The notes under the pieces are model-generated. The model searched no databases, was not told the origin of the DNA, and saw only the letters and a program-made list of their open reading frames with translations. The translations under genes were made by a program, and so were the position numbers. A stretch of DNA of 64,000 nucleotides from Actinotalea subterranea. Lineage in GTDB: Bacteria > Actinomycetota > Actinomycetes > Actinomycetales > Cellulomonadaceae. The stretch lies in contig NZ_VTTP01000002.1 in NCBI RefSeq assembly GCF_008364845.1, positions 62,001 through 126,000 of the forward strand, given 5' to 3'. Below are positions 33,645 to 48,834 of this stretch, piece by piece (positions within the stretch are counted from its first letter, which is position 1; every line of letters begins with the position of its first letter).

Positions 33645-33902
33645 GCCTGCCTCCTCGTGGTGGTCGGTGTGGTGTCCCGCCACGGTAGGTCGGTCCCGGG
33701 CGGGCCGCGCGTCGGGGCGTCGCGGCGGAAGCCGGCCGGGTCGACCGGGTAGGGGTGTCCGGGAGGTCCCGGGCCGCAGGCGCGCCGGGAGCCGTACGCG
33801 CGGGCATCCCTACCGTCCCGGGCTGGGCAAGCGTTGCGGCGAACGGGTGAATCTGGCCCTCGAGGGGCGCCCGGCTTTGCGTAGATGTCCGGATTGTGTC
33901 AA

Positions 33903-33999
33903 CCTGTCCGCGTCAGCGAAAAGGGCAAACCCACCGCGAGGTGGGGACGCAAAGCCAACGGGACCCCAGAGGTCGGCCGGGCTCACCGAACGACAGGAG
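33903..33999 (+). promoter_or_regulatory. Class I cyclic-di-GMP (GEMM-I) riboswitch controlling bldC
   Basis: The conserved blocks are present in order: AAAAGGGCAAACC (33919-33931), hairpin CCACC-GCGA-GGTGG with the GNRA tetraloop (33931-33944), GGGGACGCAAAGCC (33942-33955), then the second helix CGGGACC... GGTCGGCCGGG and ACCGAA (33985-33990). CCTGTC (33903-33908) can pair with GACAGG (33992-33997), and this 3' strand overlaps the bldC Shine-Dalgarno AGGAG (33995-33999). Ligand binding could therefore hide the ribosome site; the direction of control is inferred. Confidence 0.92.
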
Positions 34000-34005
34000 T
34001 GGACG

Positions 34006-34227
34006 ATGTCAGCTCAGACCTCCAACCGTAACGACGCCCCCGGGGCTCTCCTCACGCCTTCCGAGGTGGCCGGGATGTTCCGCGTCGACCCGAAGACCGT
34101 GACGCGCTGGGCCAAGGCCGGCAAGCTCTCGGCGATCCGCACGCTCGGCGGCCACCGCCGCTACAGCGAGTCCGAGGTCCGCAGCCTGCTCTCCGGCGTC
34201 CCGCAGCCGCGCGAGGGCGAGGACTGA
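34006..34227 (+). CDS. bldC: BldC, MerR-like developmental DNA-binding protein
   Basis: A 73-residue protein. The winged HTH is LLTPSEVAGMFRVDPKTVTRWAKAGKLSAIRTLGGHRRYSESEVRSLL, essentially the whole Streptomyces BldC core. BldC binds head to tail along AT-rich direct repeats and times entry into development in Streptomyces. Its role in a non-sporulating actinobacterium is less clear. ATG 34006 has AGGAG six bases upstream, inside the edge of the c-di-GMP riboswitch. It is monocistronic with a hairpin after the stop. Confidence 0.95.
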   Translation: MSAQTSNRNDAPGALLTPSEVAGMFRVDPKTVTRWAKAGKLSAIRTLGGHRRYSESEVRSLLSGVPQPREGED

Positions 34228-34238
34228 TCGTCCTCGCC

Positions 34239-34262
34239 GGGTAGGGCCCCAGGGTCCTACCC
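34239..34262 (+). terminator. bldC terminator hairpin
   Basis: GGGTAGG (34239-34245) pairs with CCTACCC (34256-34262) just after the bldC stop. The rest of the 130-base gap shows nothing else. Confidence 0.55.
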
Positions 34263-34359
34263 CTCTGCACGCCTCCAGCGTCGCCCTTCATCGGTCCTCG
34301 CAGCACCCCCGCCCGGGGGAGCGGCGAGGACCGCGGCATGTCCGGGCGGTGCCACCTGC

Positions 34360-35055
34360 TCAGGCCTTCGCTGCGAGCCGCTCGAGGCCGTCCAGGACGA
34401 GGTCCAGCCCGAACTCGAACTCCGTCTGGTCGTCGCACCATCCGAGCGTCGAGTCCGGGTCGTCGTGGGCGACCTCCATGAACATCGCGACGAGGTTCGG
34501 GATCTGTGGGGCGATCTGCGAGAGCATCGCCTGCGTCTCGTCGTCGCCGCCCTCGGGCTCGCCCAGCTCGAGCGTGAACCCGTAGATGCGGCTCCCCAGC
34601 GCGTGCAGGCCGTGGTGGACGAGGTCCCAGGAGAGACCGCCCGCGCGCATGAGGGCGACGACTCCGTCGACGTGGCGCGCGGCGGACAGGGTCATGACGT
34701 TGCGCGACTCCATGACCTGGGGCGCCCACCGGTGCCGCAGCATGACGGTGCGCGCCGCGAGGATGCGCACTCGGATCGCGTCGCGCCACCCGCCCTCCCC
34801 GGGTGGTGCGGCGGCACGGCTGACAGCGTCGTGGAGCTCGTCGAGCACCACCTCGACGGCGCCGTCGAGGATGCCGTCCTTGCCTCGCACGTGGTGGTAG
34901 AGCGACATGGCCTCGACGCCGAGGTCGTCGCCGAGTCGACGCATGGTGAGTGCGGTGACGCCGTCCTGGTCGGCGATCTCGACCGCGCGACGCAGCACGC
35001 GCTCGCGGGTCAGCCCGGGGCGCCGTCGTGCCGTCGTGCCCGTCGTGTCGCCCAC
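34360..35055 (-). CDS. TetR/AcrR-family repressor
   Basis: A 231-residue regulator. The N-terminal HTH is LTRERVLRRAVEIADQDGVTALTMRRLGDDLGVEAMSLYHHVRGKDGILDG, typical of the TetR subgroup with a TetR_C-type ligand domain. The C-terminal ~160 residues are helical (SWDLVHHGLHALGSRIYGFTLELGE). GTG start. It is divergent from an oxidoreductase gene with two palindromes in between, so it probably represses that gene and responds to its substrate. Confidence 0.9.
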   Translation of the reverse strand: MGDTTGTTARRRPGLTRERVLRRAVEIADQDGVTALTMRRLGDDLGVEAMSLYHHVRGKDGILDGAVEVVLDELHDAVSRAAAPPGEGGWRDAIRVRILAARTVMLRHRWAPQVMESRNVMTLSAARHVDGVVALMRAGGLSWDLVHHGLHALGSRIYGFTLELGEPEGGDDETQAMLSQIAPQIPNLVAMFMEVAHDDPDSTLGWCDDQTEFEFGLDLVLDGLERLAAKA

Positions 35056-48754: not shown

Positions 48755-48834
48755 CTGGCAGACTGTCCCCTTGGTTCCGGTTCACGTGGGCGAGCCCGCC
48801 TGCGACCCGGCGACCACCTGACGAGGAGAAGCCC

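Follow-up and report, generated by a model that had tools for sequence, protein, structure and literature searches.

A c-di-GMP-I riboswitch in front of a BldC-family paralog in Actinotalea subterranea and its relatives

A short leader in the genome of Actinotalea subterranea raises the question whether an RNA that senses c-di-GMP sits on the ribosome-binding site of a gene for a BldC-type regulator and, if so, which BldC this is and how its synthesis would be controlled. We analysed a stretch of 64,000 nucleotides around this locus (the window; contig NZ_VTTP01000002.1, positions 62,001 to 126,000 of the forward strand) together with genomes of the same family, order and phylum. The features of the locus are the following.

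33877-33882, + strand: putative −35 box TTGCGT; the TTGnnn/nAnnnT pattern occurs in 31 of 39 leaders
33886-33890, + strand: TGTCC box within the promoter spacer, conserved in the majority consensus of 39 aligned leaders
33900-33905, + strand: putative −10 box CAACCT, which aligns with CATAGT in Cellulomonas leaders
33912-33914, + strand: 5′ strand of helix P1, GUC (GTC in the DNA), partner of 33992-33994
33914-33990, + strand: c-di-GMP-I (GEMM-I) riboswitch aptamer (RF01051, 51.1 bits)
33917-33918, + strand: inner P1, C33917 and G33918, pairing with 33987-33988
33992-33994, + strand: 3′ strand of P1, GAC, abutting the Shine-Dalgarno sequence
33995-33999, + strand: Shine-Dalgarno sequence AGGAG, 0 nt after P1
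34006-34227, + strand: gene best read as a BldC-family paralog, 73 aa, a single wHTH domain (NF033787, trees)

The gene extends from an ATG at 34006, picked on the basis of the Shine-Dalgarno sequence and the homologues (the longest open reading frame in this frame begins further upstream), to a TGA at 34225-34227, and is flanked by an SRPBCC-type (Polyketide_cyc) gene and a TetR gene. The original prediction had placed a GEMM-I aptamer upstream of this bldC-type gene, ending close to its Shine-Dalgarno sequence, and both statements are borne out. A search of the window with RF01051 gave a significant match at 33914-33990 on the plus strand (51.1 bits against a gathering score of 35, E 4.7e-7), which covers positions 1-87 of the 87 of the model and is untruncated. 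RF01051 was the only c-di-GMP-I-type family reported in the window at gathering thresholds, RF03167 being absent. The last base of the aptamer, 33990, lies 4 nt ahead of AGGAG and 15 nt from the ATG.

The secondary structure was examined in an alignment of 39 leaders (38 of them distinct), consisting of the window and L128-L165; L035, L038, L168 and six bldC-like leaders that were fetched later stand outside this set. Among the 38 distinct leaders, 95.8% of the cells of the aptamer and P1 are paired, and seven pairs show changes on both sides, compared with a mean of 1.8 in shuffled alignments. There are 18 further pair types, and the covariation score is 0.169 versus 0.094 in the shuffles; on none of these measures did any of 500 shuffles reach as high. 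When the structure is slid to other registers, at most 42.4% of the cells pair. One pair of the second stem, in columns 95/123, fails in 18 of the 38 leaders. The two-stem structure with compensatory changes by which membership of RF01051 is judged was thus found. The three outer pairs of P1, 33912-33914 with 33992-33994, are standard in 38, 36 and 39 of the 39 leaders. In L129, L132 and L133, two of the three change together, G-C to U-A and C-G to G-C; these leaders are related, and their two-sided changes, which become visible only with a shift of the alignment, probably represent one event. A U-U mismatch interrupts P1 in three others, and in one leader the outer pair is lost.

By comparison with the Vc2 sequence, we take G33924, A33951 and C33986 to be the equivalents of G20, A47 and C92, of which the latter two are kept in all 39 leaders and the first in 38, the remaining one having a C. 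These three residues contact c-di-GMP in Vc2, as described in PMC4744006. Judged from its sequence, the window RNA would bind c-di-GMP. The one exception at G20, the natural leader L139 (G047), may be a relaxed, altered or dead sensor.

How common is this arrangement? We sampled 121 genomes of the Cellulomonadaceae, the family of A. subterranea; 119 have a BldC-family gene and 38 have c-di-GMP-I riboswitches, 125 copies in total. From coordinates alone, at least 37 of these 125, distributed over 33 of the 38 genomes, stand 45-82 nt ahead of a BldC HTH match; this is a lower bound, as the join used 79 rows of the BldC list. After the downstream genes had been read, the number of riboswitches that precede a bldC-like gene rose to 48, in 37 of the 38 genomes, by the addition of L164, L165, L035, L038 and L168 and of six more, including L300, the only degenerate gene among the 48. 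The exception is G022, the only riboswitch-bearing genome without such a pair. The other 77 riboswitches precede small proteins (38), longer reading frames (30) or genes that were left unclassified (9), start sites in this survey having been chosen by a simple script; many of the 30 longer frames have, by eye, starts that resemble secretion signals. In L294 and L306 (G079:C31:119791-120301), riboswitch-BldC modules occur in tandem with aptamers about 360 bp apart.

A pattern combining the aptamer core and the BldC recognition helix at fixed spacing is stringent and overlooks many true cases; within the order, it matched 17 of 396 genomes. These all belong to the Cellulomonadaceae and represent 3 of 109 genera; the reversed control of this pattern gave no match among the matches listed. 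The riboswitch itself extends beyond the family, a phylum-wide scan for RF01051 having given matches in 155 of 396 genomes, 152 of them above the cut-off, but the flanks of the best 30 of these loci (L186-L215) contained no BldC-like recognition helix. In an Rfam scan of 80 named BldC loci, ten had a c-di-GMP-I-type match just upstream of bldC, all of them among the 14 named Cellulomonas or Actinotalea, including A. lenta, C. persica, C. uda and C. alba; the scan found no riboswitch at the 64 named loci not assigned to the family. Two differently titled loci, L099 and L116, are riboswitch-less BldC copies of the family genomes G036 and G053; the former, titled Proteobacteria bacterium, looks like a misassigned bin, and the latter is titled Actinomycetes bacterium. 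Conservation of the leader ahead of bldC-like genes extends over several genera of the Cellulomonadaceae. The riboswitch is real, conserved and of the canonical c-di-GMP-I type on a BldC paralog; this kind of switch is already known, and the unexpected element is its BldC-type target.

That the gene belongs to the BldC family is clear from its protein. It matches NCBIfam NF033787 (HTH_BldC) with 102.3 bits at a cut-off of 77, has Pfam HTH_17 and MerR matches, and scores 98.2 and 97.3 bits against the BldC structures 6amk and 6ama, respectively. At 73 aa from the ATG at 34006, it is a lone wHTH domain of about 70 residues, as is characteristic of the family. The genome contains three BldC-family genes over the cut-off and five RF01051 copies. 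A riboswitch is found directly upstream of two of the three, namely the window's gene and G000:C21:570769-571056 (minus strand); G000:C27:80794, the third, scores highest and has no riboswitch. The second riboswitch-bearing paralog, L160, has diverged, and its Shine-Dalgarno sequence is weak.

Trees indicate that the gene is not bldC itself, as had been assumed. A first tree comprised 88 BldC rows, of which 50 have a riboswitch and 38 do not. One branch with support 98/89 splits the two labels; the split recurs in 98% of 200 bootstrap trees, and shuffled labels require 28.7 changes on average, although this set is biased because the riboswitch rows had been fetched for having one. We therefore enlarged the tree to 121 rows by adding 33 from riboswitch-bearing genomes, 31 of which are riboswitch-less copies. 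All 31 fall on the side of Streptomyces coelicolor BldC, across a branch whose support of 90/93 is below the program's strict mark. The labels mix only at L247, which was labelled as having none because its contig begins within an aptamer. Both trees comprise 71 columns, are unrooted and have many unresolved forks and an unsettled bootstrap, and both were built without six later BldC-like genes (L284, L294, L295, L300, L306 and L309). Riboswitch labels were assigned by reading the sequence for L035 and L038 and by Rfam for L040, which is the same gene as L159. The window gene does not group with S. coelicolor BldC, as an orthologue would, but lies in a separate lineage, while the copies on the S. 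coelicolor side have no riboswitch. It is thus best read as a BldC paralog, which we call BldC2 (gene bldC2). Like the BldC of Streptomyces (PDB 6ama and 6amk), it consists entirely of one wHTH domain; it differs in its paralogous lineage and in its riboswitch, which the BldC-side copies lack.

Upstream of the aptamer, the pattern TTGnnn, 16-18 nt, nAnnnT, whose end was required to lie 5-14 nt upstream of the end of base 4 of the Rfam match, is present in 31 of the 39 leaders versus 2.6% of mononucleotide shuffles. It fails in L132, L138, L143, L151, L153, L160, L162 and L164 and in all six later-fetched bldC-like leaders, and a generic consensus scan did not find a sigma-70 site at TTGCGT/CAACCT. 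Transcription is predicted to start near 33912, the first base of P1. Among 83 other riboswitch leaders of the family, one has the TGTCC box plus −10 pattern, and none of the six bldC-like leaders among these does. The TTGC-N5-TGTCC box (33877-33890 in the window, and in relatives), found upstream of riboswitch-bldC2 genes, is a possible operator. By eye, an element resembling TAnnnT is present at a similar distance in many leaders of other riboswitch genes.

We consider it very likely that the c-di-GMP-I riboswitch makes up nearly the entire leader of bldC2 and that closure of P1 alters the access of ribosomes. Transcription from about 33912 would yield a leader that is nearly aptamer alone. 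Binding of c-di-GMP would fold the aptamer and close P1 (GUC 33912-33914 with GAC 33992-33994), and because P1 ends exactly where the Shine-Dalgarno sequence starts, the ligand state would change the access of ribosomes to bldC2. A perfect AGGAG follows P1 within 0-2 nt in 31 of the 39 leaders. No terminator-like site was found within 33700-34400, and we infer that control acts at translation. Through this step, c-di-GMP probably sets the amount of a BldC-family regulator that is made. The BldC of Streptomyces binds DNA direct repeats in a head-to-tail manner, as described in PMC5859096; BldC2, by analogy, would bind direct repeats as an oligomer, and the level of c-di-GMP would then determine the dose of BldC2 and, through it, the output of a regulon.

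The direction of the switch is less clear, and c-di-GMP riboswitches are described as working both ways, Cd1 switching off and Vc1 switching on (PMC4744006). That closure of P1 lowers translation has, in our estimate, slightly better than an even chance. P1 in the window is short (3+2 pairs) and itself leaves the Shine-Dalgarno sequence unpaired. In ViennaRNA calculations with the aptamer and P1 enforced, the Shine-Dalgarno sequence becomes more closed in 22 of the 39 leaders and more open in 10; in the window, its unpaired probability falls from 0.45 to 0.07. On average, the enforced fold is about 9 kcal/mol less stable (−40.8 versus −49.8), before the energy of ligand binding and tertiary structure is taken into account, and the unconstrained minimum-energy folds, by eye, often lack the full aptamer.

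That closure of P1 instead raises translation falls a little short of an even chance. The specific form of such an ON switch that we examined, in which the ligand-free Shine-Dalgarno GGAG (33996-33999) pairs with CU 33982-33983 and CC 33986-33987 and is freed by c-di-GMP, is a reasonable contender, though we doubt it more than we believe it. Its four pairs can form in 78.3% of cells, versus at most 53.3% in slid registers, and the hairpin is visible, by eye, in several unconstrained folds of Cellulomonas-type leaders; moreover, PMC4744006 describes Vc1 of Vibrio cholerae as a riboswitch in which c-di-GMP raises expression. Against this, not one of the pairs shows a two-sided change, a result that all 500 shuffles equalled, and both strands are conserved for other reasons, one as aptamer core and the other as Shine-Dalgarno sequence. 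The pairs at 33986 and 33987 also fail in 12 and 14 of the 39 leaders, respectively.

It is highly unlikely that the aptamer senses another cyclic dinucleotide, be it c-AMP-GMP or the one recognised by the c-di-GMP-I-GGC variant (RF03167). Among the homologous BldC leaders, six (L042, L044, L065, L069, L078 and L086) resemble RF03167 in that they exceed its gathering score and are listed there by Rfam. The consensus of that family, however, carries GACGCGAAG, with a G in place of A47 to which we presume the name GGC refers, judging from the model. This G is seen in none of our 39 leaders, all of which have A, and on this ground we reject membership of RF03167. Three of the RF03167 matches, which we inspected, also have A where the model has G, and we therefore read them as canonical c-di-GMP-I riboswitches. 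As for c-AMP-GMP, the variant that senses it (GEMM-Ib) has an A at the position of G20, which none of the 39 leaders has. A change of G20 to A allows an RNA of this kind to bind cGAMP, according to PMC7288161.

More improbable still is the switch that had originally been proposed, in which CCTGTC at 33903-33908 pairs with GACAGG at 33992-33997 and hides the Shine-Dalgarno sequence. The letters are in place and form a perfect six-pair complement in the window, and CCTGTC recurs in close relatives; the pairing itself is at best weakly supported by the alignment. Its six pairs form in 13, 12, 32, 17, 21 and 27 of the 39 leaders. Among the 38 distinct leaders, 52.6% of the cells are paired, versus a shuffled mean of 49.5%, and on three of the five measures, namely cells paired, covariation score and two-sided cells, the helix exceeds most shuffles (19, 18 and 5 of 500, respectively, are as high). 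The number of two-sided pairs, on the other hand, is equalled by 462 of 500 shuffles, and slid registers come close, with up to 46.1% of cells paired and, in one of them, a covariation score of 0.174 versus 0.170 in register. In L161, CCTGTC is kept but the opposite side reads GACGAA. Furthermore, CCTGTC overlaps the putative −10 box and lies upstream of the predicted start near 33912, which would place it outside the RNA. Owing to its poor conservation and the likely −10 box over its 5′ half, we reject this helix as the main switch; the pairing that the alignment supports is P1.

That the stretch before the gene merely resembles a riboswitch, as a relic or by chance, and has no function is barely credible, for while all tests were in silico and the second copy in the same genome (L160) is diverged with a weak Shine-Dalgarno sequence, the E value of 4.7e-7 in the window, the covariation of the aptamer and P1, and the recurrence of the riboswitch-bldC pairing at narrow geometry in 37 of 38 riboswitch-bearing genomes argue against it.

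A c-di-GMP-I riboswitch ahead of bldC2 would link c-di-GMP by RNA to a transcription factor of the BldC family. The leader shares with other RF01051 riboswitches its sequence, two-stem architecture, ligand-contact residues and 5′ position, and differs from them in its BldC-family target and in being little more than an aptamer whose P1 abuts the Shine-Dalgarno sequence. As in the control of Streptomyces development by BldD, c-di-GMP feeds a Bld-type regulator; in BldD, however, the ligand binds the protein, as PMC6428758 describes, whereas here the RNA would sense it. The same text reports that BldC of S. venezuelae activates the cyclase gene cdgE, a wiring opposite in direction to that of the window. 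The suggestion of a second wiring of c-di-GMP into Streptomyces-type development is not supported, as the window gene is read as a paralog and the 64 named BldC loci outside the family lack the riboswitch. We found no report of the riboswitch-bldC arrangement in the open-licence literature, in so far as its text was available, and a mention in supplementary gene tables is quite possible. If confirmed, the system would mean that Bld-type regulators receive the same messenger along two unrelated paths, through protein in BldD and through RNA here. The fixed pairing of riboswitch and bldC2 would make the function of BldC2 directly testable by varying c-di-GMP, and the minimal leader, an aptamer followed by a Shine-Dalgarno sequence, would offer a compact translational sensor for high-GC actinobacteria.

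A second class of genes follows the same riboswitches. By a rule-based count that includes L304, 36 of the 125 riboswitches of the family directly precede small proteins of 43-66 aa that end in PxQ (for example L001, L011, L012, L020, L031 and, in the A. subterranea genome, G000:C22:276550-276624 on the minus strand), and two more, L258 and L259, end in PTP as judged by eye. The ending, (V/I/L)PxQ, resembles the tail of BldC, and the spacing from the riboswitch is similar. A tryptophan stretch is kept in 31 of the 36, as RWA in 11, and in some its context, VPPQxLARWA, recalls the VDPKTVTRWA of BldC. Local hhalign of these proteins against BldC gave a probability of 1.5% and a P value of 0.035; with other settings, a further run reached a score of 9.97, whereas the highest of the 57 usable shuffles, out of 60 in which columns were permuted, was 8.91. 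For eight of the proteins, Pfam returned two matches only, both near E 0.2, and no NCBIfam family was found. This similarity is weak, and homology to BldC is only suggestive. L300 and L304 encode degenerate BldC-like proteins behind c-di-GMP-I riboswitches and may be intermediates between BldC and the PxQ proteins. It is conceivable, but unlikely, that a BldC copy gained the riboswitch and multiplied with it, so that c-di-GMP would dose both BldC2 and microproteins derived from BldC, which would cap or poison the head-to-tail oligomer of BldC2; such an RNA-gated oligomer circuit would place a DNA-coating protein and its microproteins under one messenger.

Hosts of the riboswitch have many cyclases and often carry flagella. 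Five or more GGDEF matches are present in 36 of the 38 riboswitch genomes versus 4 of the 83 others, and flagellin in 33 versus 23, respectively, kinship being ignored in both comparisons; the genome of A. subterranea itself has 22 GGDEF matches, and counts near 27 per genome are lower bounds. The surroundings of bldC2 vary among loci, suggesting that the leader and the gene move as a unit. Among ten other loci viewed, L135, L136, L137 and L139 share a neighbour that we take, from its sequence, to be peptide-deformylase-like. In L144 and L145 (G091 and G016), a gene with a GGDEF domain lies about 2.6 kb from riboswitch-bldC2 on the opposite strand, and at L314 (G008:C1:2660642-2660718) a riboswitch precedes a gene that by eye resembles an EAL phosphodiesterase, a possible feedback loop. 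Elsewhere in the window, at 48771-48815, an L31-Actinobacteria ribosomal protein leader was detected (RF03158, 54.8 bits).
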